Below, piece after piece: positions 3,073 through 31,824 of a stretch of DNA of 31,824 nt. The stretch comes from a virus. Under the pieces are notes generated by a model. The model was not told the DNA's origin. It saw only the letters and a list, made by a program, of their open reading frames with translations, and ran no database searches. Position 1 is the stretch's first letter. Each line of letters begins with the position of its first letter. The DNA is taken from IMG/VR virus record IMGVR_UViG_3300007539_000106, positions 1 through 31,824 of that record. One strand, 5' to 3'. Made by a program: the position numbers and the translations under genes.

Positions 3073-4089
3073 ATGTCACTATCTAATACATTCTCCCCTG
3101 CACCCACTGGTGTAACTAGCCAGGGTTCGTCTGTATCCAATCGCGAGGACCTCACTGATGTCTTGACCGTTTTGGCTCCAGAAGAAACACCTGTTCTATC
3201 ATCCGCTTCCAAGCAAAAAGCAAACAGCACTTTCGTTGAATGGACTGTTGATACTCTTGCTGACGTAAGCACTGACGGCATCTCGGAAGGTTCCGATATC
3301 ACTTCATTCACGGACAAGTTCTCAAAGCGCGCTCGTCTTGGCAACTACATCCAGAAGTTCCGCAAGGATTACCTTGTATCTGATCTTCAGGAAGCTGTTG
3401 ACTCGGTTGGCCCCGCTAAGGTTGCTCAAGCTGAAGCTAAGGCAATCCGCGAACTAAAGCGTAACGTAGAAGCTACTCTCATCTCTGACAACGAAATGTC
3501 ATCAGAGGACGGAGCTGGTACTCCTTACAAACTTCGTGGTCTTGGCAAATGGCTCCAGAACGGTGCACAAGCTGTTAACCCTGTCCCTTCTGACTTCCGC
3601 ACTGGCACTGATTCTCTGCACCTTACTGGTGCTTTTTCCGAGTCAACACTTAACAACCTTATCACTGGTATCTACCGCGAGACTGGATCCACAGAGAGCT
3701 TGACTCTTGTTGCTGATACTGCTCTTCGTCGTAAGATCAGTGATTTCGCTCGTTTCGGTGCTGATGTTGCTGATGGAACAAACGCTGGTGTTCGTCGTGT
3801 TAGCTACAATGGCAACGAAGCCCAAATCACTCTTTCGGTTGAAGTGTACCAAAGTGATCACGGCATGGTTTCCATCGTGAACATGAATCCTGACACTGCC
3901 CCTGACACAAGCAACAAGGACACAGGATATCTCATCAACCCTGAGTACTTCGGTGTTTCTGAGCTAATTCCAATGGGAAGCACTCGCCTTCCAAATCTTG
4001 GAGCTGGTGAACGAGGCTACGTTGATTGTGCACTTACATCTCTAGTGTATCATCCACAAGCTCACGGTAAGATCACTGCAATTGCTTAA
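3073..4089 (+). CDS. Major capsid protein, SU10 / DUF5309-type HK97 fold
   Basis: 338 residues forming the icosahedral shell. The N-terminal part matches what I recall of SU10-type capsid proteins: NREDLTDVLTVLAPEETPVLS (about 23-43), then a hydrophobic/aromatic FVEWTVDTL (about 54-62), a helical spine with AEAKAIRELKRNVE and a GxGKWL segment. The start ATG follows an AT-only leader with no ribosome-binding site. Arginine codons are CGT/CGC with one CGA and no AGA/AGG, unlike the neighbours, as expected for the most abundant virion protein. The start is 9 bases after the scaffold stop. Confidence 0.85.
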   Translation: MSLSNTFSPAPTGVTSQGSSVSNREDLTDVLTVLAPEETPVLSSASKQKANSTFVEWTVDTLADVSTDGISEGSDITSFTDKFSKRARLGNYIQKFRKDYLVSDLQEAVDSVGPAKVAQAEAKAIRELKRNVEATLISDNEMSSEDGAGTPYKLRGLGKWLQNGAQAVNPVPSDFRTGTDSLHLTGAFSESTLNNLITGIYRETGSTESLTLVADTALRRKISDFARFGADVADGTNAGVRRVSYNGNEAQITLSVEVYQSDHGMVSIVNMNPDTAPDTSNKDTGYLINPEYFGVSELIPMGSTRLPNLGAGERGYVDCALTSLVYHPQAHGKITAIA

Positions 4090-21500: not shown

Positions 21501-22274
21501 GAGTTCGCCTTCGAAACATTTAAGCCTGGTTTTGTTAATGAAGGATCCAGACTTTACAAAGCGTCCAAGGGGCTCGGGGATTATTCCGTAGAAGAAGTTC
21601 TCATGCGACAGATGGGTGCTAGATTGACCAAGGTTGACTTCAACCAAATGGCAAAGTTCAGGGTGCAGGAGTTCGTGCAGGGTTACTCAAACGCCAGAGG
21701 ATCCTACACCACTGACGCGAAGTACAAGGCGGACCAGTTAACCGAGGAGCAATTAGAGCAATCCTACCGACGGGCCGTGCAGCAGGCCGAGGTGTCCTAC
21801 GACAGGATAGCGGAGTCGTTCGAACGCTTGAAGGCATTCGGCTACACCGAAGAAGATCGCATCAATCTACTGCGCGAAGCTGGAGTGCGCAGCACGGATA
21901 TTTTTCGTATCGTTCGGGGTATGCAGTTCGAACCATTCCAGCGCGGAGTACAGAAGACCCTAGGAGAGCAATACACAGAAATCGCCGAGGGTAAGAACAG
22001 AAGAGAAACCCTCGCTGAGATACGTGCATTGCGCTCAGGAGACGCTCAAAGCAAGTTCCTGGCGGAATCCCTACAAAGGGAGCACAATCGCCGTATAAAC
22101 GACGAGAAGCGCGGTAGAACGCCTCAGGACAAGCTCCTGATGAACATGAGCATACTGGAGCGCGTACGTGTCCTGAAGAGCATGGGAGTGCACAGGAACA
22201 GGGCTCTGTTCAGCGAGATGAAGCGCAAGGGCGTTATTAACAAAGAAGTCGGTAAGCTCCTACGCAGTGCATAA
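18561..22274 (+). CDS. Large internal virion / DNA-ejection protein
   Basis: 1237 residues, the longest gene. It starts MAGRDLTPEELAEYRQRRGL. It is mostly alpha-helical with short Gly-rich hydrophobic segments (about 28-110) and a middle region (about 590-830) including KVIFNPPSYAVNLIGGQAS and SLGRKLSRAGILPPFVTFTL. That middle region resembles large polyvalent-protein domains (LPD38-type) of phage ejection proteins as I recall them. The C-terminus is charged and helical. As the last late gene it matches the T7 gp16 position. No lytic transglycosylase motif was seen. Its stop codon lies inside the opposing terminator. Confidence 0.6.
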   Translation: MAGRDLTPEELAEYRQRRGLPPVQDDITVAEPDTTGAQIAGSAVTEIGGNILGEILTQTIGRRIPDAAKKQGIQFLGRFLSGAASSALAQKVEGKEDLSLGRMIAGGTVNNMLTKVKAPLTSPVVRDAAKSAVLAGSERVIADAIDEQEFNPLDVAIAAGTGGLLGTAVGQAQYKFSDADKVATLIGKNANEIDEIIAKGEVGKEDLNALLQDAVGAPITQRQLDRTSERMIRERTAQALQSSQNPVPRMLSDIKSFIAPTKALKGVRNFREDYLNFADKIQSAEALSTRLQNAIDKTVMSKPHLAEDINDYLDGMPLSEALLDEGIAGDLQSFRAIETEALSELESILKDSAELDFLDADSKAAVLNRLAIVSKSHRSFDTQQYKAFTNKEFVQNKISEEEVLEEVTGSLVMQGIDPEKAAKDASKHVKHIKSLFAKATDKGTGRSKQADLLVSLPGRFEKVIGGHAPGPKERAFLGEVDQPFLASGLKARFRIRESIRHLANMESDVKLKQGLEEAGLISTVKTEDSIEFSPKYTQGTDAQGNQLYVPYEAGKAIHRLYETGFNRQAADEASNVLAQIYGIGVTGSKAAKVIFNPPSYAVNLIGGQASMLSNGIIPNIGKNYREGASLAFREVHSLYNSGAKLSKGQKKISDPAVREKISNDMAEMYKYGIGNATIAANEVADAINNGKMGDIARGLTAGAGKLYSITDTATRFTIWKHNQKRLTDILNAGDALSANRDQIKRIAAEITNDTYQNYARTWSLGRKLSRAGILPPFVTFTLELARNTGNQISYALRMINGDAFAQKFGIELNETSRDLLRAEGYKRLMYLAGTMSLAYGASSLVGDAIGKMSGNAGDRVDPRDMESFRFFSPSYMRNQDIVATYNPKTKTGTSAATSYLFPHTMFTGLVKSAVAQAQNPFIEADAEKNVQSALGAVIDNLVGEGTFIGQNLYRALDNRDVYGKVITDKEGAAKFGALLKEFAFETFKPGFVNEGSRLYKASKGLGDYSVEEVLMRQMGARLTKVDFNQMAKFRVQEFVQGYSNARGSYTTDAKYKADQLTEEQLEQSYRRAVQQAEVSYDRIAESFERLKAFGYTEEDRINLLREAGVRSTDIFRIVRGMQFEPFQRGVQKTLGEQYTEIAEGKNRRETLAEIRALRSGDAQSKFLAESLQREHNRRINDEKRGRTPQDKLLMNMSILERVRVLKSMGVHRNRALFSEMKRKGVINKEVGKLLRSA

Positions 22275-22315
22275 AAAAGCCCCCACCGACAAAATAGGAA
22301 AAGTCGATGGAGGCT
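22273..22315 (-). terminator. Leftward terminator of the early region
   Basis: On the minus strand a 13-pair stem (AGCCTCCATCGAC with GTCGGTGGGGGCT, three G-U pairs) and a 12-base loop is followed by six T. On the plus strand two of those pairs become mismatches and no T-run follows, so it works leftward. It overlaps the stop of the rightward 1237-aa gene. Confidence 0.85.
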
Positions 22316-22328
22316 CCGTGAGGCTTAA

Positions 22329-22349
22329 ACAAGGTGAATAAGACCTTGT
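22329..22349. repeat. 7-bp inverted repeat in the convergent intergenic region
   Basis: ACAAGGT, 7-base loop, ACCTTGT. It follows the late genes by 55 bases and has no T-run, so it could be a weak rightward stop or an RNA-stabilising stem. I see nothing else in 22275-22424. Confidence 0.4.
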
Positions 22350-22424
22350 CCTTGGTTACCCTTGGACTTACCTCACTCCCTGATAGGGCTATGTTACACT
22401 ATGACAGAAACAATAAGACGAATA

Positions 22425-22637
22425 CTAGATATTATTGTTACGACCTTTATTTAAAAGATGCTTTGCGTAGTCTGTCAACCCTAAGGGTTTTCTTTTTGAG
22501 TTTTTATCTACGATATCTTTAGCGTAGTCGGTTAATTTTATTTCGTCGTGCTCTACGCATGCGTGCGCTTGCTTGATTTCGTTCATTGTTACTTTTTCGA
22601 AGTATTTTAGGCAACTTCGTATTGTTTGTGGATTCAT
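22425..22637 (-). CDS. 70-residue protein with duplicated LTDYAK motif
   Basis: A small basic protein. LTDYAKDIVDKNSKRKP (about 35-51) and LTDYAKHLLNKGRNN (about 54-68) are two tandem copies of one helical unit. The N-terminal half is helical with Cys and His (SCLKYFEKVTMNEIKQAHAC). It is the most distal leftward gene, after the SSB-like gene's terminator, so it may have its own promoter. No family recognised; a small regulatory or DNA-binding role is only a guess. Confidence 0.5.
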   Translation of the reverse strand: MNPQTIRSCLKYFEKVTMNEIKQAHACVEHDEIKLTDYAKDIVDKNSKRKPLGLTDYAKHLLNKGRNNNI

Positions 22638-22676
22638 TTTAATTAGCTTTGATGGATTAATATTTTTAGGTATTGC

Positions 22677-22709
22677 AAAAAAAGGCGAGGAGGAAAAATC
22701 CTCCCCGCC
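22677..22709 (-). terminator. Terminator after the SSB-like gene (leftward)
   Basis: On the minus strand GGCGGGGAGGA pairs with TCCTCCTCGCC (one G-U pair) around a 4-base loop and is followed by seven T. It lies 13 bases past the SSB-like stop codon and ends the DNA metabolism unit. Confidence 0.9.
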
Positions 22710-22721
22710 CGAATCGATGCT

Positions 22722-22940
22722 TTAGAATGGAGCGGACTCGCTCTTCGGCGAACTTTCCTCTTCCTTCTTTGTGACCTTCCACTTGATGTATTTACCTGCT
22801 TTGTCACTCTCGTTGAACCAACCTGACATGCGGTACTCAACGCCTTCTACGTCAAGTTTGCCTGTCATATCTGGTTGTGATTCCTTCTGTTTATAGGTGT
22901 TTTTGAAGGATGCACCTGTGTTTGTGTTATCGTATTGCAT
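22722..22940 (-). CDS. Small SSB-like / OB-type phage protein
   Basis: 72 residues with a beta-like core (GKLDVEGVEYRMSGWFNES, GKYIKWKV) and a polar C-terminal tail ending in Phe. I recall this short class, close to DUF736, beside recombination genes; several are labelled single-strand DNA-binding. The Phe-tipped tail is reminiscent of T7 gp2.5, but it is not strongly acidic. It is the last gene of the L3 unit, 6 bases after the ERF gene, which fits a replication/recombination role. Assignment is tentative. Confidence 0.5.
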   Translation of the reverse strand: MQYDNTNTGASFKNTYKQKESQPDMTGKLDVEGVEYRMSGWFNESDKAGKYIKWKVTKKEEESSPKSESAPF

Positions 22941-22946
22941 ATTTAT

Positions 22947-23405
22947 TTATTGGTTGAAAAGATCTTCCACTTTCTTCTGCTCTGTTTTTTTTGGAGATGT
23001 AGCTCCGTGAGTATTTGTAGCATCCGCATCCTTGGTATCGTCGATTGCAAATAACCCATTGAGGGCGTACTTGCGAGCGTATGATGATGCCGAGCCAGTG
23101 ATCTGGGCCTGGTCCATGCCCTTCTTTGTGTCGGCGTGCTCTGCTGGTCCCTTTGAGACTAGAGTGTCCGAACTATCGTTATCGTAAAGAGTTGCTGTTG
23201 CTTCAACGAACAACTTGGAACCCTTCTCAACTATCTCGTCAGAGATAATTAAACAACAACTCCACTCTGCAAGTAATGGTTTTAATGCAGTTAGGATGTC
23301 TTCACAGGAGCGATACTTGTACCCTCCGAACTTATTGGTTTGCCCCTTCGGGGCTATCAAGGAACTTTGTATCCCTTGTAGTTTTTGTCTTATGTTATGA
23401 CTCAT
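22947..23405 (-). CDS. erf: ERF-family single-strand annealing protein
   Basis: 152 residues. The family signature KGMDQAQITGSASSYARKYA continuing to LNGLFAIDDTKDAD (about 95-128) is clear, and the N-terminal YKYRSCEDILTALKPLLAE (30-48) also fits. ERF proteins anneal complementary single strands in phage recombination and genome circularisation, normally with an exonuclease; two nuclease genes lie upstream in the same unit. The length is short for the family but the core is complete. The Lys/Glu tail (KKTEQKKVEDLFN) resembles the SSB-interacting ends of related proteins. Start context AATAAATATG without Shine-Dalgarno. Confidence 0.85.
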   Translation of the reverse strand: MSHNIRQKLQGIQSSLIAPKGQTNKFGGYKYRSCEDILTALKPLLAEWSCCLIISDEIVEKGSKLFVEATATLYDNDSSDTLVSKGPAEHADTKKGMDQAQITGSASSYARKYALNGLFAIDDTKDADATNTHGATSPKKTEQKKVEDLFNQ

Positions 23406-23844
23406 ATTTATTTTCGGTTATCTTTTTTCTGAAGAGCTTGGTTCTTTCCTTGCTGTTCAGATCTGTAATATCTGACTTGTGGAAACCAAGGTCAAGCAAA
23501 ATTTTCTCTTGTTGTTGCATTTTTTTTACTGCGAACTTTTTACTGAGTTGAGTAGCTCCGTACGGATGCAATAGATCAAGATCCTCTCTCTCCAGGTAAT
23601 CCGCCATCCTGCGCAGGGCTTCGGGTAATTCTATTGCGCTACTCTTCTGCACGTATCTTTTCCATGCGTTCTCTATCTTACCTAGCAGGACATTGCTTTG
23701 CCTATGCAGGACCCCTCTTACCCTACCCGTGTCGTGCGAGTGATCCACTACGCAATCTTGCATATCTGCGGCAGTGATAGGGCACTTGTTGGTGCAATTA
23801 GTACTCCTCCAATCCTTTAGGTCGCTCTGCTTTATGTATTTCAT
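23395..23844 (-). CDS. Endonuclease VII-like recombination endonuclease (atypical zinc site)
   Basis: 149 residues. The catalytic motif DHSHDTGRVRGVLHRQSN (about 34-51) with LLGK matches the T4 gp49 / endonuclease VII His-Me-finger pattern. One N-terminal Cys pair is visible (C17 and C21). The second Cys pair that in T4 endonuclease VII follows the catalytic motif is absent: HRQS stands where CxxC is expected. Holliday junction or branched-DNA cleavage, needed before packaging, is the likely job. Overlaps the ERF start by 11 bases and the upstream gene by 4. Related 'LHR' variants may be a subfamily. Confidence 0.75.
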   Translation of the reverse strand: MKYIKQSDLKDWRSTNCTNKCPITAADMQDCVVDHSHDTGRVRGVLHRQSNVLLGKIENAWKRYVQKSSAIELPEALRRMADYLEREDLDLLHPYGATQLSKKFAVKKMQQQEKILLDLGFHKSDITDLNSKERTKLFRKKITENKYES

Positions 23845-24191
23845 TGTAGTCCTATGTCGTTGAGAGATTCTGGTAGGACCTCTTCGTCGATTTTATCTTT
23901 TGTTTCGTACAGGCACATAGCGTTCCAAAGAACGGCAGATAGATGATCTTCTTCCTGATCCCCGTCCATGAAGTCCCACAAGTGCCTATAAATACTATCA
24001 ATGTATCTAGATAGGGGAATGCCTTTCTCCCAGTTACCGCGCCCGTACTTATGTGCGCCCTCTTCGAACCTGCGAGAAACTGCCCTGAGTGCCGACATGG
24101 GCATTTGACTGGGCAGTCCCTTGTTATGCATTGCATCGCGCACAGCACCAGTAGTGAAGTGCGACATTTCACCAGAGCTAGGAAGAGACAT
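23841..24191 (-). CDS. dATP/dGTP diphosphohydrolase (MazG-like, DUF5664)
   Basis: 116 residues from the chosen start at 24191, where GGAGGA lies 8 bases before the ATG. A start 7 codons earlier at 24212 is also possible. RRFEEGAHKYGRGNWEKG and SIYRHLWDFMDGDQEEDHLS match the phage dATP/dGTP diphosphohydrolase N-terminal family that includes MazZ-like enzymes. Acidic residues in EEGAHKYG and DGDQEEDH are the likely metal ligands. The enzyme would hydrolyse purine dNTPs to dNMP, changing the pool for viral DNA synthesis. No PurZ is in the window. Confidence 0.75.
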   Translation of the reverse strand: MSLPSSGEMSHFTTGAVRDAMHNKGLPSQMPMSALRAVSRRFEEGAHKYGRGNWEKGIPLSRYIDSIYRHLWDFMDGDQEEDHLSAVLWNAMCLYETKDKIDEEVLPESLNDIGLQ

Positions 24192-24354
24192 CTTCTGCGT
24201 CCTCCGTAGCAACTAGTTCCTTGAGCTTGCGCTTTTCGTTGGATAGATCCTTGCGCTGTTCAAGCATGCGCTCTATTTTATAAGTAAGGACTCGGCTCTC
24301 GGCACGTATCATGTCGATCCTTGTCTGTATTCTTTCTTTATCGTTTTCTCTCAT
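24178..24354 (-). CDS. 58-residue coiled-coil protein
   Basis: A short ORF, MRENDKERIQTRIDMIRAES onward, wholly helical with heptad-like Leu/Ile spacing, then KLKELVATEDAEDVSS. Its TAATG overlap with the upstream gene and 14-base overlap with the downstream gene fit the coupled operon. Function unknown. It resembles the next upstream protein in being a coiled coil. Confidence 0.6.
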   Translation of the reverse strand: MRENDKERIQTRIDMIRAESRVLTYKIERMLEQRKDLSNEKRKLKELVATEDAEDVSS

Positions 24355-24551
24355 TACTCCCTTTCTTCTGCGTTAGACAAGATTCTGTGCTGAAGCATGT
24401 CAATTTTTTTCTTAAGATTGTCTATATCTTTGTTCAGCACTTCGTTCTGTTTTGTAAGAGCCTCGCATGATTGCGTCATTGCTTGCAGTCCCCTGCTGAG
24501 GACTTCCTCTGAGTTAACCTTGTATAAGGATCGTTTTGTATCTTCTGGCAT
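24354..24551 (-). CDS. 65-residue coiled-coil protein
   Basis: MPEDTKRSLYKVNSEEVLSR then a long heptad region (QNEVLNKDIDNLKKKIDMLQ). It overlaps the downstream coiled-coil gene by TAATG and lies 3 bases after the endolysin stop. Two adjacent small coiled coils could form a hetero-oligomer; no family known. Confidence 0.6.
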   Translation of the reverse strand: MPEDTKRSLYKVNSEEVLSRGLQAMTQSCEALTKQNEVLNKDIDNLKKKIDMLQHRILSNAEERE

Positions 24552-24554
24552 TTG

Positions 24555-24908
24555 TTATATTATATTTGATTGTACTTTTTTCCAGTACTTCTTTGTTGTT
24601 TCTTTCTTGTATCCGTTGGGTCCACCATTGTGCACCCTGGATAAATCTTCTGCAGTTGGCTGTCTACCCAGGCGCTCCTCGGTGCAGTAGTGCAACATAT
24701 AAATTGTGAACATGTCAATTGAATGCTTCCGATTGAAGGCATCCTTGTGCGAGTATCGATCCTCCTGCAGTATTCTATTTACGTCCTGCACGTAGGCGGG
24801 ATGAATCTGCATGCACCCGTAGGCTTGCCCGTTGTCCCCGATTGCGGAATCGTTGCCTCCGCTTTCCACTATGATAATTGCTAGCGCTAATTGTATTATT
24901 GTAATCAT
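24555..24908 (-). CDS. Lytic transglycosylase-like endolysin
   Basis: 117 residues. IIIVESGGNDSAIGDNGQAY followed by GCMQIHPAYVQDVNRI is the typical SLT/goose-lysozyme-like opening: catalytic Glu at residue 15, then the GxxQ(I)HP segment. HNGGPNGYKKETTKKYWKKV is the closing motif. It would cleave peptidoglycan, for lysis or entry. The hydrophobic N-terminus is the first helix of the fold, though it might also act as a signal-anchor. It lies inside the replication unit, coupled to DnaB by TAATG, far from the membrane-protein cluster of the late region. Confidence 0.75.
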   Translation of the reverse strand: MITIIQLALAIIIVESGGNDSAIGDNGQAYGCMQIHPAYVQDVNRILQEDRYSHKDAFNRKHSIDMFTIYMLHYCTEERLGRQPTAEDLSRVHNGGPNGYKKETTKKYWKKVQSNII

Positions 24909-26218
24909 TACTTGAATCTCCCTACATGATTTTTGAATATGAACTTCCCGTATTGGTCGCGTTCACCTTCGCGTTGTTTTGCTACGTTGTATTTTATTGA
25001 TATATAAGAGCCGTGCTGTTTGTCGTGCATCTTTGCGGCATTTGTATCTTCGCCATTGGGCCATAGCAATAGAATAATATCTGCGTCATTCTCAATGTCC
25101 CCGCTATCCTTGAGGTCGTGCAAGGTAAGTCCAGTCTCTCTTTTTGCACCTTCGCGATTCACTTGCGCTAAAAGAATCACTGGAAGATCAAGCTCCATTG
25201 CCATAAGTTTTATCTGATGGCTGATCTCTGCGATTGCATCGTGCTTCTTCATGCGACTATCCCACGGGACTAATTGCAAGTAATCAATAACAATCCACTC
25301 TATGAAATGCTTGCGCTTGTGCATGCGAGCCTTTGACCTGAGTTCCTCGACGTTGCGCACGTAGTGCTCGGTGTATATACTTGATGCCTGCACCTTTTCC
25401 GTTGCCTCCCATACGCGCTTCTGCTTCTCGGGCGGGAGTAAACCATCTCTGAAACGGTCAAGGTTAACGGCAGAACAAGTCTGTATCATCCTCTTTGCCA
25501 GGGACTTCGACTGCATCTCAAAAGAAAAATACAACCCTGGTTTACCTTGTGTCACTCCATTCTGCAGAGCTATGTTCAGCGCTATGCAAGTCTTTCCGCA
25601 GGATGTTGGGGCCGCGACTACCATTACCTCTCCATTTGAAATTCCACCTGCACTTAACTTTTCATCTAGTTGCTGTATGTAAGTCGGCATGGAATTAGTA
25701 ACGTATGTTCCATCCTGCATCTTCTTGAAGTCATCTACTAGAAGTTGAGTTGCGCTTGATATACTGCAGTCCTGATCGGCTCCATTGTGCATGAGATCAG
25801 TCAATTGCTTTTCCATCTCTGCGATGATCTCGTCCGCGTCCTGATCCTCTTCGGCGGACTCCATGCATTGCTTGGAAGCTCGTATAATTTTTCTTAGCCT
25901 GGACTTCTCTCGGACTATATTTGCGTAGTTCTGAACCTGCATTGGCGTATCAACCTTCTTTTGGATACGCAGTATGTTTTCAATGCCCCCTGCATTTTCT
26001 GCAATGCCCTGCTGCTGCAGAAGTTCGAACAATTCTATTTCAGAGAAACCTGCACCCTTGTTGGCTAGGTCGGCTATCGCTTCAAAGATAATAGCATTAC
26101 CATAAGCGTAGAAGTCCTTGGCATTTACGGTTGCGCTGATGCTATCGTAGACGGAGTTATCCATCAAACAACAGCATAGTAAAGCCTCTTCTGCGTCTGT
26201 ATTCTTTGGTGCTTGCAT
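24908..26218 (-). CDS. dnaB: Replicative DNA helicase, DnaB family
   Basis: 436 residues, normal for a phage DnaB. The N-terminal helical domain (about 1-105, starting QAPKNTDAEEALLCCCLMD) binds primase in other members. Walker A APTSCGKT is at 203-210, Walker B WIVIDYLQLV at 308-317, then AQVNREG and DLKDSGDIENDADI. It unwinds DNA 5' to 3' at the fork. No primase, loader or DNA polymerase is seen in this window. Its ATG overlaps the upstream stop (TAATG) and its own stop overlaps the endolysin start, so expression is coupled. Confidence 0.9.
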   Translation of the reverse strand: MQAPKNTDAEEALLCCCLMDNSVYDSISATVNAKDFYAYGNAIIFEAIADLANKGAGFSEIELFELLQQQGIAENAGGIENILRIQKKVDTPMQVQNYANIVREKSRLRKIIRASKQCMESAEEDQDADEIIAEMEKQLTDLMHNGADQDCSISSATQLLVDDFKKMQDGTYVTNSMPTYIQQLDEKLSAGGISNGEVMVVAAPTSCGKTCIALNIALQNGVTQGKPGLYFSFEMQSKSLAKRMIQTCSAVNLDRFRDGLLPPEKQKRVWEATEKVQASSIYTEHYVRNVEELRSKARMHKRKHFIEWIVIDYLQLVPWDSRMKKHDAIAEISHQIKLMAMELDLPVILLAQVNREGAKRETGLTLHDLKDSGDIENDADIILLLWPNGEDTNAAKMHDKQHGSYISIKYNVAKQREGERDQYGKFIFKNHVGRFK

Positions 26219-26409
26219 TATTCTTTTAATTCTTTGACTGAAATTATTTTACCCGATCCGCCTCTTTTAAAATTGCAGGAGCCATCCTTGGCGGGTATTT
26301 TTTTTAGAATGTAGGAAAGAGCCTTCTTTTCATCGTGCGCCCATTTGGTTGTTCGCATGACTTGGCCCTCAACATCACTCCTACTATAGGTGATGAGGTA
26401 TTCCTGCAT
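26218..26409 (-). CDS. Small protein upstream of DnaB, unknown
   Basis: 63 residues from the start at 26409 (MQEYLITYSRSDVEGQVMRT). This start is chosen because it forms an ATGA overlap with the upstream stop; an earlier in-frame ATG at 26472 lies inside the neighbour. Basic C-terminus (CNFKRGGSGKIISVKELKE). A mixed alpha/beta shape like small regulatory proteins. Its position next to DnaB suggests a loader or accessory role, but there is no motif evidence. Confidence 0.6.
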   Translation of the reverse strand: MQEYLITYSRSDVEGQVMRTTKWAHDEKKALSYILKKIPAKDGSCNFKRGGSGKIISVKELKE

Positions 26410-26663
26410 CAGGTGAAGAGAATCTGAAATCCACGTCCCGCCATAGTACCTATGACGTTGTAGTCTATCCACTCTTCGGCTTCTTCGGCGCTCATTCCGT
26501 GATCCTGCACGAACACTTCGTGCATCTTATCGTATGAATACACTAGCTCTCCGTGCTGATTGGTGCCAATTACTGCATCATCAAGGTCATGGAATATTAT
26601 CGCATCATCTGCGGCTTCGTTTATGTAATCTATTGCGTCCTTATTTTTTCTTATGTATATCAT
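26409..26663 (-). CDS. Small acidic phage protein
   Basis: 84 residues, strongly acidic (AIDYINEAADDAIIFHDLDDA), with VIGTNQHGELVYSYDKMHEV and GMSAEEAEEWIDYNVIGT. I recall close look-alikes among hypothetical proteins of many unrelated phages, so it is a spread family of unknown function. Overlaps the nuclease gene upstream by 23 bases and the downstream gene by 4. The acidity could point to DNA mimicry or protein binding; not tested. Confidence 0.65.
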   Translation of the reverse strand: MIYIRKNKDAIDYINEAADDAIIFHDLDDAVIGTNQHGELVYSYDKMHEVFVQDHGMSAEEAEEWIDYNVIGTMAGRGFQILFT

Positions 26664-27435
26664 TTTTGTTCAGCATTCTAGTTTTCCAATAAATTTTACT
26701 GCATAGCTTGGCAACTTCTATTCCGTGCAGGATCTCCTCTGGACTCCACACCTTATGGAAGTGCTGGCAAGTATCGCTGTCAATGCATACTGAGATGCAA
26801 CCTGGGATGTAGTCAAGCGCGGGATTCGTCGCTTCCTTCAGCATCCATGCTTCAATGGCAAGCTGATACAGATCCTTGTCGTACACTTTCGCTTTACCCT
26901 TGCAGTTCGACCTGCACTTGTAATCCGCCAGGAACACTTCCCCGCCCCTGTCCCTACCAATGAAATCTACACTACCTACAATCTTGATTCGGGGATTACC
27001 AATCATGTACTCGGCGGCAATCGGCTCTACCCCTTCCTTCCTGTACCACTGCACGAAAGGCATGGCCCAGTCGTCCCATGTATTCAACTCTGGGTCTGTC
27101 CTCTTCGAATTAACGTCAGCCAGAACGTGATCCTCTATGCGCTTGTGCACTGCTGTGCCGAACTCAGAGGATGGTATCATTTTTGCGCTCGTCGGATGCT
27201 TGCGCAGGCCGTACGTGAGATCTTTTATGCTCCCCCAGCCGAGGTTCGGATGCTCCCTTGCCAATCTAGTTATTTCTTTTGGCTGATATATGTCGTTGAG
27301 GAAAGGATCCTTTATCACAGATAGAACAGTTGTTACACTGGGCATTACCCCTTTGTTCTTTTTTGCCTGTGCAGGCGTTCTGATCTCTTCTAAAAATTTA
27401 GGGTTTCCTGCGTTGTACTTGTAGAAATGTGACAT
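26641..27435 (-). CDS. PD-(D/E)XK exonuclease (RecB/Cas4-like)
   Basis: 264 residues. Motifs in order: FGTAVHKRIEDH (92-103), E142 (AAEY), GSVDFIGR (154-161, D157), ADYKCR (170-175, D171 and K173), YQLAIEAW (190-197). These are the G-x-x-D, D-x-K and Q motifs of RecB-like exonucleases, which need two metal ions. In phages they pair with annealing proteins (Red-type recombination); here the ERF gene is in the same unit. Cys at 174 and 178 and later might bind an Fe-S cluster as in Cas4, but the four-Cys pattern is not clear. Confidence 0.8.
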   Translation of the reverse strand: MSHFYKYNAGNPKFLEEIRTPAQAKKNKGVMPSVTTVLSVIKDPFLNDIYQPKEITRLAREHPNLGWGSIKDLTYGLRKHPTSAKMIPSSEFGTAVHKRIEDHVLADVNSKRTDPELNTWDDWAMPFVQWYRKEGVEPIAAEYMIGNPRIKIVGSVDFIGRDRGGEVFLADYKCRSNCKGKAKVYDKDLYQLAIEAWMLKEATNPALDYIPGCISVCIDSDTCQHFHKVWSPEEILHGIEVAKLCSKIYWKTRMLNKNDIHKKK

Positions 27436-27941
27436 ATTTTATTTAGTTTTTTGTGAACAATTGTGAGTAGGTCCGATCTCTTTATTATTGAGATTAGATC
27501 GTCTCGGTTTCTCCTGCTGTAGCCTTTGTAGAGCGCCTCCCTAGGGGAGTCAACCAATTCTGTGGTATTGCATAGTTTTTCTGCAAGTCGGCGAAGGAGC
27601 CCTGTTCGCACTATTATGTAATCCTGCAACCCTTCGAACGCAACGAAGTCCTGCTCTCCATACAACCACCCAGGCTTCCCTACGTTATTCTTGAACTCCA
27701 CCCAGATGGTATCCTCGTCCTTGGCTGTCCCTCTTCTCTTGGACTTCAGTGCCTTCACATCTATGCTCCCTGCTAGACATACCCAGTCAATGTGCTTGTA
27801 TTGCTCCTGAAGGGTAGCTCGGCGAGCTAATGGATACTTTACCTTCAAAGCATCTCCGAAGGTATCCTCGGCCTCCTGTCCGTCCTTCCATGACTCGGAA
27901 CCTATCCAGTCGTCATAGGTCTGTCCTTTTTCACCGCGCAT
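27390..27941 (-). CDS. PD-(D/E)XK-like nuclease, second copy
   Basis: 183 residues. AEDTFGDALKVKYPLARRAT then HIDWVCLAGSIDVKALKSK (50-68) and IWVEFKNNVGKPGW (79-92) give the acidic/Lys pairs (D52, D61-x-K63, E82-x-K84) of a restriction-type nuclease fold. It overlaps the exonuclease start by 46 bases. It opens the L3 unit directly behind a terminator. Possible jobs are host DNA degradation, resolvase or nicking enzyme. Which acidic residues are catalytic is uncertain. Confidence 0.55.
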   Translation of the reverse strand: MRGEKGQTYDDWIGSESWKDGQEAEDTFGDALKVKYPLARRATLQEQYKHIDWVCLAGSIDVKALKSKRRGTAKDEDTIWVEFKNNVGKPGWLYGEQDFVAFEGLQDYIIVRTGLLRRLAEKLCNTTELVDSPREALYKGYSRRNRDDLISIIKRSDLLTIVHKKLNKICHISTSTTQETLNF

Positions 27942-27953
27942 GTATTACCCCCC

Positions 27954-27961
27954 TATTCTCT
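27954..27961 (-). promoter_or_regulatory. AGAGAATA element before unit L3
   Basis: AGAGAATA on the minus strand, 13 bases before the ATG at 27941 and just downstream of the 27984-28023 terminator. The same element (AGAGAAWA) precedes the L1 and L2 starts. A -10 function is plausible but no -35 is seen here. Confidence 0.35.
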
Positions 27962-27983
27962 TTTATGTCGTGCATGCCCGCAT

Positions 27984-28023
27984 AAAAAAAGATTCGCAAC
28001 CTTTTGTCAAGGCTGAGAATCTT
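27984..28023 (-). terminator. Leftward terminator between units L2 and L3
   Basis: On the minus strand AAGATTCTCAGCCTT pairs with AAGGTTGCGAATCTT (three internal mismatches) around an open loop and is followed by seven T. It would stop transcripts of the accessory unit before the DNA metabolism genes. Confidence 0.8.
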
Positions 28024-28066
28024 CGCTGGTCGGATTGACTTCTGAATTCAATCGGACTATTAATAT

Positions 28067-28171
28067 CTAAGATGAACAAGCGTAGATGATTAGATAAGCT
28101 ACGATGAATATCTCCACGAGCACGATGATGTAATCAACGGGCGGTGGTTTGTCTTCATCCTGCCAGTGCAC
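28067..28171 (-). CDS. Micro-ORF, single-pass membrane peptide
   Basis: 34 residues from a GTG at 28171 (MHWQDEDKPPPVDYIIVLVE start), preceded by GGAGGAGCAGG. The sequence from about residue 13 to 32 is one hydrophobic helix, ending CSS. It overlaps the upstream 125-aa gene by 17 bases and ends before the terminator. Its reality depends on the GTG start and the ribosome-binding-like GGAGGA. Confidence 0.35.
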   Translation of the reverse strand: MHWQDEDKPPPVDYIIVLVEIFIVAYLIIYACSS

Positions 28172-28532
28172 CCTGCTCCTCCATGTCCAAGATGTAGTCC
28201 AAGGCTTCCGTGAGGGTTTCGAAGGCATGCGAAACACCAGTTAGACTCTGACCCTCAGGTGAACTGACCCCACAATACCTGTGCTTACTACCCGTTGAAC
28301 CCTCGGCGGCGAACCAGTAGTAGGTGTAACCCTTCTCCAGGAGCGCGAACCTGTCCTCGTATGTCCTGGGCTTGAACTCCTGCAATGCGGCTCGGATCTC
28401 GGTGACCCGAAGATACGGGTTCGGATACCCGAGCTCGCCATACTGCATTCTTGACAATCCCTCGTTCGCGTCCAGCGCAAGCACCTCCGTGTAGGGGTCG
28501 ATTTTTTCTGTGTGTATTTTTATTGTATTCAT
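28155..28532 (-). CDS. Accessory protein, unknown (125 aa)
   Basis: Starts MNTIKIHTEKIDPYTEVLAL. A mixed globular protein with two aromatic-rich strands (YTYYWFAAEGSTGSKHRYCG) and an acidic C-terminal helix (ALDYILDMEEQGA). ATGA overlap with the upstream gene. Its first codons (ATGAATACAATA) repeat those of the next gene. No family recognised. Confidence 0.6.
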   Translation of the reverse strand: MNTIKIHTEKIDPYTEVLALDANEGLSRMQYGELGYPNPYLRVTEIRAALQEFKPRTYEDRFALLEKGYTYYWFAAEGSTGSKHRYCGVSSPEGQSLTGVSHAFETLTEALDYILDMEEQGALAG

Positions 28533-28810
28533 GATTCTAACTCCTTTGTTCCAGCGTCGAAACCGAAAGTGTAGTCAGCACTGCGCTCGTCCTTGGTTGA
28601 GTATGGAGAGTTGTAGTTATCCCCAGACATGCCATCTGAGAACCCCTTGTTGTAAGCCGTCCGAGATAAGACCATGGTGTCTTTGCTCGTAGTCCTTAGT
28701 TTCTTTACCAGAGCATCCATCCTTTCGAGCCTTTCGTAGTAATCGTGCGGCTCGGTTTCGTTGAGTGCATTCTGCACCTCTGTATGCAGTTCGTTTATTA
28801 TTGTATTCAT
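28529..28810 (-). CDS. Accessory protein, unknown (93 aa)
   Basis: MNTIINELHTEVQNALNETE, a helical N-terminus, then GFSDGMSGDNYNSPYS and a short Tyr/Phe/Gly segment near the end, ending TKELES. AAGGA is present before the ATG. ATGA overlap with the downstream gene and 4-base overlap with the upstream one. No family recognised. Confidence 0.6.
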   Translation of the reverse strand: MNTIINELHTEVQNALNETEPHDYYERLERMDALVKKLRTTSKDTMVLSRTAYNKGFSDGMSGDNYNSPYSTKDERSADYTFGFDAGTKELES

Positions 28811-29097
28811 TTTTTTCCTTTTGTTATGTAGAATTGAACCATGCTGTTAATACTATCTCTTAGCTTGTCGAGTATATCTTGCGGGTCTATCCCCTCTGCT
28901 ACTTCAAGATTGTCCAGAATCTCGCAATCGGACTTTCGTGCACCGAGCGTTCGACCGAAGCCGTAGCACCCGTCAGTGAAGCAAAAGTAAGGGACTTCAT
29001 CATCCCTTCTTTCGCGGTAGTTTATCGCAGTCAGCACCATGGGCTTATCGTCCACGATGTATGCCTGCCCGATTTGTAGGTTTGCTTTTGTATTCAT
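28807..29097 (-). CDS. Accessory protein, unknown (96 aa)
   Basis: The start at 29097 (MNTKANLQIGQAYIVDDKPM) is chosen over the earlier 29154 start because it overlaps the upstream stop as ATGA. It has a beta-like first half (AYIVDDKPMVLTAINYRE) and a Cys/Gly-rich centre (YFCFTDGCYGFGRTLGAR), then a helix. No known family. Confidence 0.6.
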   Translation of the reverse strand: MNTKANLQIGQAYIVDDKPMVLTAINYRERRDDEVPYFCFTDGCYGFGRTLGARKSDCEILDNLEVAEGIDPQDILDKLRDSINSMVQFYITKGKK

Positions 29098-29222
29098 AAG
29101 TATTCTGCGATGATTGTAACCCCGAGCAGTATGCCTGCGATAATGATACTCCAAAGCACGATATAGGCGCTCTCCTCTTGCTTGTCAGTTTTGACTAGCT
29201 TATTTGGTTTTTTGATTTTCAT
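29094..29222 (-). CDS. 42-residue membrane protein
   Basis: A short ORF with a basic N-terminus (MKIKKPNKLVKTDKQEESAY) and one hydrophobic helix at about 21-39 (IVLWSIIIAGILLGVTIIA). It is joined by ATGA to the downstream gene and overlaps the upstream gene's stop by 4 bases. Coupled on both sides, it is likely real. An early-expressed small membrane protein may affect the host envelope or exclusion of other phages; not shown. Confidence 0.6.
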   Translation of the reverse strand: MKIKKPNKLVKTDKQEESAYIVLWSIIIAGILLGVTIIAEYL

Positions 29223-29575
29223 AATTCTGCGTCGAAGTTGCATTGTCCTGTTTCTTTTAAGCAGTCCCTGATCTTCCTGCCGAGAAGCAGGTCTGCGTAG
29301 TCACTGAGTTGAGCTTCGGTTATGCCATTCTGCTCAAGAGTTTCATGGTTGTATGATCCCTTCCCGCCGTATAGGTAGGATTCAATTTTCTTCTCGTCGA
29401 TTGAATCTTTGATGCTCTTGATCTCTGCCTCGACAGTGGGCAGATCCTCTTCTTCGAAGTAGTATTCCACGTAGTTCGGCTGATTACCCTCAACGCCGAA
29501 CCTGTCGGCGGCAATCGATGATTGCAGTCCGAACCAGAATTTACCTTCTATATCTCCGTTGTAGTATCTACCCAT
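29219..29575 (-). CDS. Widespread phage accessory protein (118 aa)
   Basis: MGRYYNGDIEGKFWFGLQSS onward, with YVEYYFEEEDLPTVEAEIKS and a Gly/Tyr turn. I recall very similar hypothetical proteins in many phages, so it is a conserved but unassigned family. AAGGAGG lies 5 bases before the ATG, the best ribosome-binding site in the window. Acidic overall. Confidence 0.7.
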   Translation of the reverse strand: MGRYYNGDIEGKFWFGLQSSIAADRFGVEGNQPNYVEYYFEEEDLPTVEAEIKSIKDSIDEKKIESYLYGGKGSYNHETLEQNGITEAQLSDYADLLLGRKIRDCLKETGQCNFDAEL

Positions 29576-29759
29576 TGTTGCCTCCTTCTATTGTGTAGTT
29601 CTGTAGTGTAGTGAAGTAGTCATGCTCTGGGTCAGCTTCTTCAGCGTCCCAATCGATGTCCCCTATGTCCATCTCCATTCCTGCTAGCGCTTCCGCTTCG
29701 AATTCATCCTCAGCTTCAACTAGCACTCCAACGTATGCTTTGCATATGTATGTTTTCAT
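29568..29759 (-). CDS. Small acidic protein (63 aa)
   Basis: MKTYICKAYVGVLVEAEDEF then EMDIGDIDWDAEEADPEHDY, strongly acidic. AAAGGAATAA precedes the ATG; 8-base overlap with the downstream gene and ATGA overlap with the upstream one. It could be a small inhibitor or DNA mimic given its charge, but this is speculation. Confidence 0.6.
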   Translation of the reverse strand: MKTYICKAYVGVLVEAEDEFEAEALAGMEMDIGDIDWDAEEADPEHDYFTTLQNYTIEGGNNG

Positions 29760-29974
29760 TTATTCCTTTCTGTTTTGTTTTTGTATGATGGTAGATTCGT
29801 TCTGATTTCATCATGAATGCTCCCATAAATTTTATCATCTAGATTGTAGGACTCATGGTGCTCCCCCCAATTCGGAAAGTGCACTTCGTGCTTGCGAAGC
29901 ACTACTCTGATTTCATCCATGATTTCGTTTGTGAGATCGTCGATCTCTGCTAATAACTTATCCTCAAAGCTCAT
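29756..29974 (-). CDS. Small protein (72 aa), unknown
   Basis: MSFEDKLLAEIDDLTNEIMD, an acidic helix, then RVVLRKHEVHFPNWGEHHES and a Lys-rich end. AAAGGA lies 9 bases before the ATG. Overlaps its downstream neighbour by ATGA and its upstream neighbour by 11 bases. No family recognised. Confidence 0.6.
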   Translation of the reverse strand: MSFEDKLLAEIDDLTNEIMDEIRVVLRKHEVHFPNWGEHHESYNLDDKIYGSIHDEIRTNLPSYKNKTERNK

Positions 29975-30182
29975 TGCTTCTGATCCTTTCTAGGACATCG
30001 GCGCATGATGCCTTCCATGCTTCCCAACTTACGAAGCCATTGCCCCAGTTGCTAGGTGATTTCTCTTTCTTGGCGACTTGCTCGCAGTATTTTTCAATAG
30101 CTGAAAGCACTACAATTTGATTAAGCGGTGAACCATAATTCATCGCGTCGGTTACTTTTTCTGTATTATTCTTGTATTGCAT
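29964..30182 (-). CDS. First gene of unit L2 (72 aa), unknown
   Basis: MQYKNNTEKVTDAMNYGSPL then SWEAWKASCADVLERIRSNE. Helical, with a Trp-rich centre (NWGNGFVSWEAW). The codons after the ATG carry the AATACAA motif found at other early starts. A promoter-like element lies just upstream and the L1 terminator 65 bases upstream. Confidence 0.6.
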   Translation of the reverse strand: MQYKNNTEKVTDAMNYGSPLNQIVVLSAIEKYCEQVAKKEKSPSNWGNGFVSWEAWKASCADVLERIRSNEL

Positions 30183-30190
30183 AAGTTTGT

Positions 30191-30219
30191 ATTCTCTGGA
30201 GTTAGCCCCCCTTTTTCAA
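30191..30219 (-). promoter_or_regulatory. Candidate promoter of unit L2
   Basis: On the minus strand TTGAAA, 17-base spacer, GAGAAT (within AGAGAATA). It lies between the L1 terminator and the ATG at 30182. The predicted start would leave only one or two untranslated bases. Confidence 0.4.
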
Positions 30220-30246
30220 GTAAATAAAAATTTTTTTTAGCAAAGA

Positions 30247-30268
30247 GGGTGAACAAAAATGCCCACCC
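30247..30268 (-). terminator. Leftward terminator of unit L1
   Basis: On the minus strand GGGTGGGC pairs with GTTCACCC (two G-U) around ATTTTT and is followed by TCTTTGCTA. It lies 8 bases past the DUF7227-like gene stop. The T-run is weak, so termination may be partial. Confidence 0.55.
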
Positions 30269-30276
30269 CCTTGATT

Positions 30277-30963
30277 CTAGCCAACCACGAACCCCGTCGA
30301 GTCCACCTTTGCCAGTCCCTTTTCGACCAGTCCTACAACCGAATTCCTACGATCCAAAAAGCGCAAATCGGTTTCGTCTCCGTCAACCACGGGCAAACCT
30401 TGCCAGGTCTCGGGCAGTCCGTTGCGAAAAACTACTGCAACATTTAGACCCGCTTTTATTGCAAGTTTGCATTGCGCGCCGTTGCTTTCCGATCTCGAAA
30501 AAGTCAAGTCGTAGTTTGGCAGCTTGTTTTTCATGGCGCGTTGCACTCCCTTCGTGTAGTCATAGAACTGGAACTCAGGAAAATGCTCAAAAACAGTCTT
30601 GCCGTCGATTGCATTCGCTTTTGCTTCCCATGGAATGTCGCTCGTTAGGTTCAAACGGAAGCAAGCACGCATTCCTAAGCGATCCGCTCGGCGCGTTGCC
30701 TTTTCGATCTCGTCAAGTAATTGAGACATGAAGCCAGCTTTATCCCTGAAAAAGAATTGCGTTTTGTTGATGCGCGCCTTTTGCACATTTGACATCACGC
30801 CGCGTCCCGCCGTGTTCAAACAAGCCGCCGTGCAACCTTTCGAAGCCCACGGGCAAGCATTGAACCCGCTTTCATGAGCGGGAGCCAAGTGCATGCCGTA
30901 AGTAATCCAACCTAGTTTTTCACCTTTGCGGGTTTTTGTATTTCCTGTATTAAGCAATTTCAT
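30277..30963 (-). CDS. DUF7227-like phage protein with C-x6-C-x3-C motif
   Basis: 228 residues. LLNTGNTKTRKGEKLGWITY (3-22), LAPA (26-29), CPWASKGCTAAC (37-48), FRLNLTSDIPWE (102-113) and YDYTK (134-138) form a pattern I recall in a widespread phage family now called DUF7227, with no proven function. Three Cys in C-x6-C-x3-C invite a metal or Fe-S cluster, but this is not the radical SAM spacing (CxxxCxxC). Codons favour CGC/CGT Arg, ACG and GCG, unlike the AGA/AGG-rich late genes. L1 gene with its own terminator. Confidence 0.7.
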   Translation of the reverse strand: MKLLNTGNTKTRKGEKLGWITYGMHLAPAHESGFNACPWASKGCTAACLNTAGRGVMSNVQKARINKTQFFFRDKAGFMSQLLDEIEKATRRADRLGMRACFRLNLTSDIPWEAKANAIDGKTVFEHFPEFQFYDYTKGVQRAMKNKLPNYDLTFSRSESNGAQCKLAIKAGLNVAVVFRNGLPETWQGLPVVDGDETDLRFLDRRNSVVGLVEKGLAKVDSTGFVVG

Positions 30964-31144
30964 TTTCTTTTATTATCCTTTTTAGGTTTTTCATGTATGT
31001 TCCGTAGGTCACGTTTTTTTCGTAGACCAACTCCAGTTGATGCGGGAAGAACTCTTCATAAAAATCTACATTTAAAATTTTAATGTAGATGCGAGCCAGT
31101 CCGCGCGCTTTGCTATAATGTCCGATTACGTTACTTGATATCAT
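30950..31144 (-). CDS. Small protein (64 aa) upstream of DUF7227-like gene
   Basis: MISSNVIGHYSKARGLARIY then a beta/helix mix rich in Tyr and Lys (YEKNVTYGTYMKNLKRIIKE). It overlaps both neighbours by 14 bases, as in a coupled operon. No family recognised. Basic C-terminus. Confidence 0.55.
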   Translation of the reverse strand: MISSNVIGHYSKARGLARIYIKILNVDFYEEFFPHQLELVYEKNVTYGTYMKNLKRIIKENEIA

Positions 31145-31421
31145 CGCAATCGAACCCTTTCTCTTCTAGCAATTCGATAATTTCGGCGGCGAGTTCAAAA
31201 ACCCCGTCGTAGTCCGTCAGCGTTTTGCCGTCGAACCATAAACCACCCTCGGCATACCAATCCTGCCCGCCGTCGATTTCAAACCAGCCATTGCCGTCCG
31301 CTTTAATGCAAACAGTGAATTTTGTTTTCACTGCGTTTTGTTCTCTGGTGATCCCGAAGCTGTTCTCTTCGTAGAGATCAACTTCGCGGGTCACGCTGTA
31401 TTCTTTTGTATTATTTAACAT
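31131..31421 (-). CDS. First leftward gene (96 aa), acidic, unknown
   Basis: MLNNTKEYSVTREVDLYEEN onward. Beta-rich with several aromatic/acidic strands (GWFEIDGGQDWYAEGGLWFD), ending in an acidic helix. As the first gene behind the early control region it may be expressed first after entry, a usual place for host-takeover proteins, but no motif supports a particular activity. The promoter-like element is 10 bases from the ATG. Confidence 0.55.
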   Translation of the reverse strand: MLNNTKEYSVTREVDLYEENSFGITREQNAVKTKFTVCIKADGNGWFEIDGGQDWYAEGGLWFDGKTLTDYDGVFELAAEIIELLEEKGFDCDDIK

Positions 31422-31430
31422 AACGCCGCA

Positions 31431-31459
31431 ATTTTCTCTGTTTTTTCTGCATCTGTAAA
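31431..31459 (-). promoter_or_regulatory. Candidate early promoter of unit L1
   Basis: On the minus strand TTTACA, 17-base spacer, GAAAAT (within AGAGAAAA). The -10-like end is 10 bases from the ATG at 31421, so the transcript would be almost leaderless. Confidence 0.4.
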
Positions 31460-31474
31460 GGGTATTTGTTACCC
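31460..31474. promoter_or_regulatory. Possible operator: GGGTA-tttgt-TACCC inverted repeat
   Basis: Perfect 5-bp arms directly upstream of the -35-like element of the early promoter, a typical place for an activator or repressor site. Short, so chance is possible. Confidence 0.35.
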
Positions 31475-31529
31475 ATTTGAACCTATTAATACTGAAAAAA
31501 ACTTATTTTCTCTTAAAAAACCGCGCTAT

Positions 31530-31598
31530 GCGTAAAAACTGGCGCATCTTTGCCCCCTTTGTATCGCGTAAAACCTTTTTGCGCAACTGTTTGCGCAA
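31530..31598. repeat. GCGTAAAA and TTGCGCAA short repeats (iteron-like)
   Basis: GCGTAAAA occurs at 31530-31537 and 31566-31573, each followed by GCGCA (31542-31546, 31581-31585). The 8-bp palindrome TTGCGCAA occurs at 31579-31586 and 31591-31598, 12 bases apart. This is a typical layout for protein-binding sites at an origin or operator. Confidence 0.65.
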
Positions 31599-31618
31599 GC
31601 CTGCCTTCTGCCCTCCGA

Positions 31619-31677
31619 GACAGCCAAGATGAAGGAGCCAAAGGGTAGTCGAAGACCGACGCAGCATCTTGGCTATC
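31619..31677. repeat. 13-bp inverted repeat with 33-base spacer
   Basis: GACAGCCAAGATG (31619-31631) and CATCTTGGCTATC (31665-31677) are inverted copies with one mismatch. The spacer holds a smaller GTCG/CGAC pair. Could form a cruciform or RNA stem-loop. Confidence 0.7.
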
Positions 31678-31686
31678 ACCCTGTTA

Positions 31687-31747
31687 CCCCCCTTACCCCC
31701 CTTTCCCGCACTGCCCCCCCGCCCCCCCGCGCCAACAACCCCCCCCC
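31687..31747. repeat. Runs of 6-9 C (G-tracts on minus strand)
   Basis: C-runs at 31687-31692, 31696-31701, 31714-31720, 31722-31728 and 31739-31747. The complementary strand has at least five G-runs in about 60 bases, so G-quadruplex formation is possible. Confidence 0.75.
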
Positions 31748-31765
31748 TGTCGGGTGAGGCTCATA

Positions 31766-31797
31766 GGGGCGGAGTTACCCTCGGGATAACTCGCCCC
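31766..31797. repeat. GC-rich imperfect hairpin
   Basis: GGGGC-G-GAGTTA pairs with TAACTC-GCCCC with one bulged G and a short CC/GG inner stem. No T-run, so not a classic terminator. It might be part of an origin, a packaging signal or a structured leader RNA for genes beyond the window. Confidence 0.6.
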
Positions 31798-31824
31798 GCC
31801 GACGGTCCTCTTCGTACGCCTCCG

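Follow-up and report, generated by a model that had tools for sequence, protein, structure and literature searches.

The DNA stretch studied here, IMG/VR record IMGVR_UViG_3300007539_000106, is classed as linear, and its 31,824 bases, taken as a whole, are referred to below as the window. Its proteins include an SU10-type capsid protein, a DnaB-like helicase, an ERF annealing protein, an endonuclease VII and a GP88 protein. Structural genes occupy the plus strand up to position 22,274, and replication and early genes occupy the minus strand from 22,425 to 31,421; the classes early, middle and late were assigned from gene order and content, not from expression. Judged by its helicase, the nearest named phage is C75C1 (46%), and the phage lineage of the window is little known. 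Close relatives were taken from IMG/VR (L002–L017), and more distant clades comprise L040–L108 (from a listing for the helicase clade of at least 600 stretches), L118 and L124–L128. Scans of the window displayed no tRNA and no Rfam match. Our subject is a short word, AATACA, in many places AATACAA, which is enriched at or just after the start codons of early genes that are unrelated to each other.

All sites in the window given here lie on the minus strand. In the early gene at 31131..31421 (96 amino acids, with relatives), the sequence AATACAAAAGAATACAG at 31396..31412 holds two copies of the word at +9 and +19 of the start at 31421, in frames 0 and 1. The GP88-family gene at 30277..30963 (228 amino acids; PF17338, E 1.2e-47) has two copies as well, at +12 and +21 within AATACAGGAAATACAA (30936..30951), which are driven by the peptide LNTGNTKT and are not kept at the DNA level. 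The early gene at 29964..30182 (72 amino acids) is flanked by the word on both sides of its start, as the earlier note on this DNA had reported: AATACAA stands at -11 (30187..30193), in a leader that is kept in relatives and also precedes a different gene in L008 and L016, and AATACAAGAATAATACAG (30161..30178), in whose place a sister clade shows AAAACAAGAACAAACATAG, adds copies at +4 (frame 1) and +15 (frame 0). Immediately 3' of the ATG, AATACAA is found at 29088..29094 in the early gene at 28807..29097 (96 amino acids) and at 28801..28807 in the early gene at 28529..28810 (93 amino acids), and in the early gene at 28155..28532 (125 amino acids) AATACAATAAAAATACA (28513..28529) reveals copies at +3 (frame 0) and +14 (frame 2). 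The six starts that the earlier note had named (31421, 30963, 30182, 29097, 28810 and 28532) all have the word within -11 to +21 of the ATG, and the three paired forms quoted there are present in the sequence. Further along the strand, AATACA overlaps the ATG at 27941 (27941..27946), where it is poorly kept in the family, and it occurs at +15 of the DnaB-like helicase gene (26198..26203; 8 of 12 family members), at +11 of the lysozyme-like gene 24908 (24892..24897), at +23 of gene 24354 (24326..24331) and at +4 of the endonuclease VII-like gene 23844 (23835..23840; 8 of 10 family members).

Over the window, AATACAA is present in 23 copies against 4.85 expected, a number reached by none of 100 shuffles; the minus strand has 11 copies, seven of them within 28,523-31,412. 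Since part of this excess is plain strand composition, the start regions were tested separately. For a hand list of 51 window genes (11 early, 13 middle and 27 late) with start windows from -30 to +38, the 759 bases of early start windows contained 11 AATACA, carried by six genes, while dinucleotide shuffles led us to expect 1.31 and none of 2,000 reached 11; the bodies of the 11 early genes (2,484 bases) contained none. Start windows of the middle genes displayed five copies (1.37 in shuffles), those of the late genes four (1.16 in shuffles). Two starts of the hand list, 29225 and 26463, turned out not to be start codons, and the later tests were run on the output of an automatic gene caller.

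Grouping the genes that this caller found in the window and 14 relatives yielded 76 families, 40 on the early strand and 36 late; genes 30 bases or less from a contig end were excluded, and L014, L015, L117 and L119–L123, being longer or shifted cuts of contigs already included, were left out of the family counts. One representative per family, the window's own where available, entered the k-mer and codon tests, and all 4,096 hexamers were ranked in a scan that held the ATG fixed and shuffled each side with dinucleotides preserved. AATACA was found in 18 of the 40 early families (4.5 expected) and GAATAC in 10 (1.6 expected), the two ranking first of all hexamers (z 6.1; 99% point of the null maximum, 4.8), and among the 36 late families AATACA was seen in four, outside the 14 top hexamers. 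Other representatives gave 16 of 40 early families (4.2 expected), and other representatives together with more late genes gave 15 of 36 early (3.3 expected) and 6 of 45 late (2.3 expected), so that the suggestion of an enrichment only near early starts holds largely, with some surplus in late families. At least one member with AATACA (first 75 bases from -30, matches starting at -25 or later) is present in 22 of the 40 early families, which means that the word is attached to genes of different families. Applied to named phages, the scan picked out in TM4 the start-associated sequence already published (z 13) and returned Shine-Dalgarno words in T7 and T4; it showed no AATACA excess in TM4, T7, T4, lambda or C75C1, and no comparable start word in lambda and C75C1.

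The word is a six-base core with loose flanks. Weighted by family, its density is 4.7/kb at -15..-1, rises to a peak of 18.8/kb at 0..+14 and is 7.2/kb at +15..+29, with most copies at +3..+23 and a minority upstream; deeper in genes values of 0-2/kb prevail, the exceptions being two bins near +135..+164, at 3.5 and 2.8/kb. An equal frequency away from start codons, which the earlier note had named as speaking against a start signal, is accordingly not what we found. In the reverse (antisense) orientation, the word is at the starts of 0 of 40 early families. This orientation bears on the possibility of an element acting at the DNA level, such as the -10 box of a promoter (TACAAT) or a recombination boundary located where genes begin. 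TACAAT is indeed contained in AATACAAT, and the early region shows gene shuffling among relatives, with gain and loss being common. However, the sites lie at or after the start codon and not at promoter distance, the word is strictly sense-strand, and a search for promoter-like sites in 22000-31824 gave 12, where shuffles gave 12.9; we consider a role of this kind very improbable.

The earlier note had also held that the word falls in different reading frames and is not simply a shared protein motif. Over all families the first point is clear: by register, the 22 families comprise four with frame 0 only, four with frame 1 only, four with frame 2 only, five with upstream copies only and five mixed, and unrelated genes begin, for example, with ATG AAT ACA (MNT), ATG CAA TAC AAG (MQYK) or ATG CAA ATA CAC (MQIH). 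In the window itself it is less so, seven of the 11 copies being in frame 0 (Asn-Thr), two in frame 1, one in frame 2 and one upstream. After permutation of codons 2-13 within genes, the word was expected in 3.7 of 40 genes against 14 observed, AATACA being the top hexamer, and it was present in 2 of 36 late genes in the same test; synonymous codons redrawn from the start-region pool gave 9.8 copies against 18 observed (p 0.0004). The second point fails at 30963: the N-terminus of GP88 characterises the family, distant relatives included, and the AAT and ACA codons there are silently changed in L003 and L004, with loss of the DNA word. Because all three registers after the ATG are used and the codon permutation is beaten, the word is placed by nucleotide rather than by peptide, 30963 excepted.

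These tests bear on another explanation, namely that A-rich codons (Asn, Thr, Lys, Ile) after the ATG keep the start open and AATACA is their chance product, inflated by the copying of leaders as genes are shuffled. The starts are 45% A, the residues N, T, K and I are about doubled at positions 2-8, and the peptide-driven site at 30963, lost by silent change, fits such an origin, as does the frequent gene gain and loss. In L003 at about 3111-3143, compared with L006 at 1599-1880, a deletion took most of a 28810-family gene and left its first bases, ATGAATAATACAATA, together with its last bases ahead of the next start. Yet dinucleotide shuffles, codon permutation, column shuffles and synonymous resampling preserve these biases and fall short of the observed numbers, copying leaves the three registers in unrelated genes unexplained, and 22 locus-strand sets of more distant GP88 relatives and C75C1 revealed an AATACA excess nowhere at p 0.05. 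We already disfavour a by-product of this kind and hold it to be rather doubtful, and the enrichment is confined to the clade of the window.

The folding of the starts and their Shine-Dalgarno sequences provided further insights. Early starts carrying the word are predicted to be poorly folded: the mean predicted unpaired probability is 0.70 for early starts (own shuffles 0.598, sd 0.014) and 0.756 for motif starts, compared with 0.60 for late starts and 0.44 for early bodies. The trinucleotide TAC occurs 67 times in early starts against 35.7 expected (z 5.3), and ACA in late starts 44 times against 63.4. A Shine-Dalgarno-like stretch of at least 4 nt precedes three of the six named starts (30963, 28810 and 28532) and is lacking at 31421, 30182 and 29097; overall it is present in 14 of 40 early and 7 of 36 late families and is general in neither class. 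Families with the word have it in 5 of 17 cases and those without in 9 of 23 (Fisher p = 0.74), showing that word and Shine-Dalgarno sequence are independent. The absence of Shine-Dalgarno sequences assumed at first is therefore true of half of the named starts but is no rule, and the word as a Shine-Dalgarno substitute was rejected, as it is not associated with a missing one.

From these features we propose that AATACA is a start-associated, A-rich and unstructured translation-initiation element of the early class with a clade-specific core, and that its action as an enhancer, a proposal drawn from sequence, has about an even chance of being right. The mRNA from about -15 to +25 would be kept open and A-rich, the word would act as an anchor for the 30S subunit, perhaps for ribosomal protein S1, or would ease the first decoding steps, and most early genes, having no strong Shine-Dalgarno sequence, would reach efficient initiation through it. 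By analogy, enhancement is favoured by the open starts, the tolerance in position and the precedents of ACA modules and A/U-rich early codons. Sections of PMC3879156 describe ACA triplets that enhance initiation without a fixed position, and CA repeats that do so also downstream of the AUG; like these repeats and the enhancers of yifK and dppA, the sites found here are ACA-containing, A/C-rich and position-tolerant stretches near the start, but the yifK and dppA enhancers are described there as lying near a Shine-Dalgarno sequence in enteric genes, and here AATAC is the specific part and ACA mild. The A/U-rich hexamers AADUAU and AAVAUU, which increase the amount of protein made in E. coli when located at codons 3-5, are different words, and their effect, in the part of PMC6920384 concerned with it, depends in part on the peptide (Lys/Asn-Tyr/Ile). 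An A-rich upstream region and little use of Shine-Dalgarno sequences are also features of the Kozak-like starts of Bacteroidetes treated in portions of PMC6847099; unlike in those, the A at -3 is unremarkable in the clade of the window (0.51, like its neighbours). A Bacteroidetes host was considered and not adopted, TAnnTTTG promoters being at shuffled level in the window, L106 and L092 and mildly above it in L007 and L016, along with the unremarkable A at -3; L109, a Flavobacterium single-cell scaffold, encodes a helicase that is 51% identical.

Among close relatives, with the window counted, the word is kept in 9/9 members at 28532, 8/8 at 30182, 8/8 at 24908 and 11/11 at 24354, and when members are compared in pairs, the codons of the motif agree in 797 of 873 comparisons, where the rate for the same codons inside gene bodies would predict 687. 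Ranked in a single locus, AATACA comes first in L007 and L016. Several observations weigh against an initiation element. In the window alone AATACA ranks third, with a z under the 99% null maximum, and it ranks 6 in L010, 7 in L003 and 50 in L017. The capsid-type late genes, with their heavy demand for translation, hardly carry it. At other genes it is kept in only 3/4 (29097), 2/4 (28810), 4/6 (30963) and 1/10 (27941) members, and at several genes close relatives differ in having it, through gain or loss. Among the first 15 codons, those of the same kinds outside the motif are identical in 2,881 of 3,317 pairs, so that the motif codons, at 91% against 87% for neighbouring start codons, show a small gain, from pairs that are not independent. 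Finally, ACA occurs 105 times in early starts against 87.9 expected (z 2.1), the specific part being TAC, which the precedent of ACA enhancers does not predict. CGAAGA, the top word in L010 and L017, was set aside as a candidate; in L010 its positions are scattered, without a common leader.

An enhancer and a regulator site fit the sequence alike, and some of these observations are what an operator might leave behind. In that case a phage RNA-binding protein or mRNA nuclease of the clade would bind AAUACA over the AUG and, like RegA and RegB of T4, reduce the expression of early genes at a later stage of infection. The early-class bias of the word, its specificity beyond ACA with TAC enriched, its six-base core with loose flanks and the use of different words by different clades, which might reflect a co-evolving regulator, are consistent with this. 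So are its A-rich and predicted unstructured sites that overlap or follow the AUG over early-gene start regions, which resemble the T4 RegA and RegB sites in the description given in parts of PMC3014915, although the RegA operator there overlaps the AUG or sits immediately 5' of it and the word of the window clade is mostly just 3' of it. On the other hand, RegA (PF01818) and RegB (PF10715) gave matches in 0 of 6 clade records, which are fragments, at E up to 1, and the early and middle proteins scanned revealed no Pfam or PHROG family of RNA-binding regulators. The word also differs from that of T4, where our scan returned mainly Shine-Dalgarno words, and the sites turn over rapidly. We regard an operator as unlikely, though deserving of consideration, and retain the initiation element as the preferred reading.

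Comparison with sister clades points to a core start word that is lineage-specific, other A/C-rich words apparently standing at early starts elsewhere. In clade B, closest of the sisters when judged by the early genes in common, AATACA occurs in 8 of 54 families (5.4 expected). TGAAAA and ATGAAA lead the ranking of start words there, and AAAACA, too, has a higher density at starts than in bodies. Clade C (43 loci) displays GAAAGT in 10 of 51 families (1.1 expected), with 14 copies among 297 distinct start windows, all in the -20..-11 bin. In clade E (helicase 57-59%), whose start word is the most pronounced among the sisters, 34 of 102 early families have AACCAT (8.6 expected), as does 1 of 40 late families (0.7 expected); the word comes from leaders of tandem AAACCATAAAC repeats in the 40 bases before the ATG. 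Such leaders stand directly 5' of the ATG at L106 2923 and 3558 and at other clade E early genes (L087–L108). Clade D (4 loci) revealed no clear start word in the hexamer scan.

At the gene level, the start of gene 30182 reads ATGCAATACAAGAATAATACAG in the window and ATGAAAACAAGAACAAACATAG in the clade B orthologue, and that of gene 28532 reads ATGAATACAATAAAAATACA in the window and ATGAAAATAGAAGTTCACACC in a clade C relative that has AACCATAAACC in its leader. In sister clades the protein of an orthologue stays and its start word changes, but not every orthologue differs: some of clades B and C do carry AATACA, for example those of 29759, 24908, 23844 and the helicase. A bolder and rather unlikely extension is a start-word code, in which each clade would mark its early mRNAs with its own word (AATACA, AAACCATAAAC or AGAAAGT), read by a co-evolving phage factor for translation or shut-off.

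A close published parallel is the start-associated sequence (SAS) of Cluster K mycobacteriophages, described in parts of PMC3203893 as a short asymmetric word found in one orientation at many unrelated gene starts, with a proposed role in translation; about half of its copies have a 17-base inverted repeat (ESAS) upstream. Our word is likewise repeated at the starts of unrelated genes and lineage-specific. In contrast, the SAS, according to the same parts, is the 13-base GGGATAGGAGCCC, lies immediately upstream of starts and includes the Shine-Dalgarno-like AGGAG, whereas the word of the window clade has six bases, is A-rich, stands at or after the ATG and is biased to early genes. Hexamers of the SAS came out on top in the TM4 scan and were absent among the top words of the window clade. 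A literature search, with subscription journals largely outside its scope, found no publication describing a word of this kind in these phages.

Several further features came to light. Upstream of early genes we identified long hairpins that form one family: their ends, ATAGCCAA...TTGGCTGT, are fixed, while the self-complementary sequence between them varies. There are 12 distinct copies over clades A and B, with up to five per genome; the stems differ between copies yet remain paired. Members are located at 31620-31676 (minus strand) of the window, at L007 624, 1228, 2033 and 2531 (plus) and 1893 (reverse orientation), at L016 6760 and 7298, at L017 6388 and 7514 (plus) and 7029 (reverse), and at L125 361. 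The family gave no Rfam match in the window and none above threshold in L007, L016 and L017, where the scan (E up to 1) returned a single sub-threshold match at chance level. Its members may be structured RNAs, sites of transcript processing or elements of single-strand DNA. At the record's right end, 31670-31750 carries very G-rich runs on its minus strand, adjoining the start of the early region, and L007 shows similar GGGGGG runs ahead of its hairpins. In L007 (219-236), and also in L016 and L017, TGATATAAT, of the extended -10 type, lies six bases 5' of the ATG of an HNH-like first early gene; this spacing would place the transcription start at or near the ATG, and a leaderless mRNA is possible for that gene. 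At about 8321 of L092, a called open reading frame contains, by appearance, a candidate 3' half of a tRNA gene.

Assuming that the word functions in translation, these phages would possess a start signal of the early class that is compact, tolerates shifts in position, stands outside the Shine-Dalgarno scheme and evolves fast between sister phages while the proteins stay, and the clades would offer a natural experiment on what the ribosome or a phage regulator reads around the AUG. Should the start-word code be true, early timing would be set at the ribosome and not at promoters only. Start words could also aid the calling of small genes and the assignment of fragments to clades, and they may provide a handle on the uncharacterised early genes of uncultured phages.

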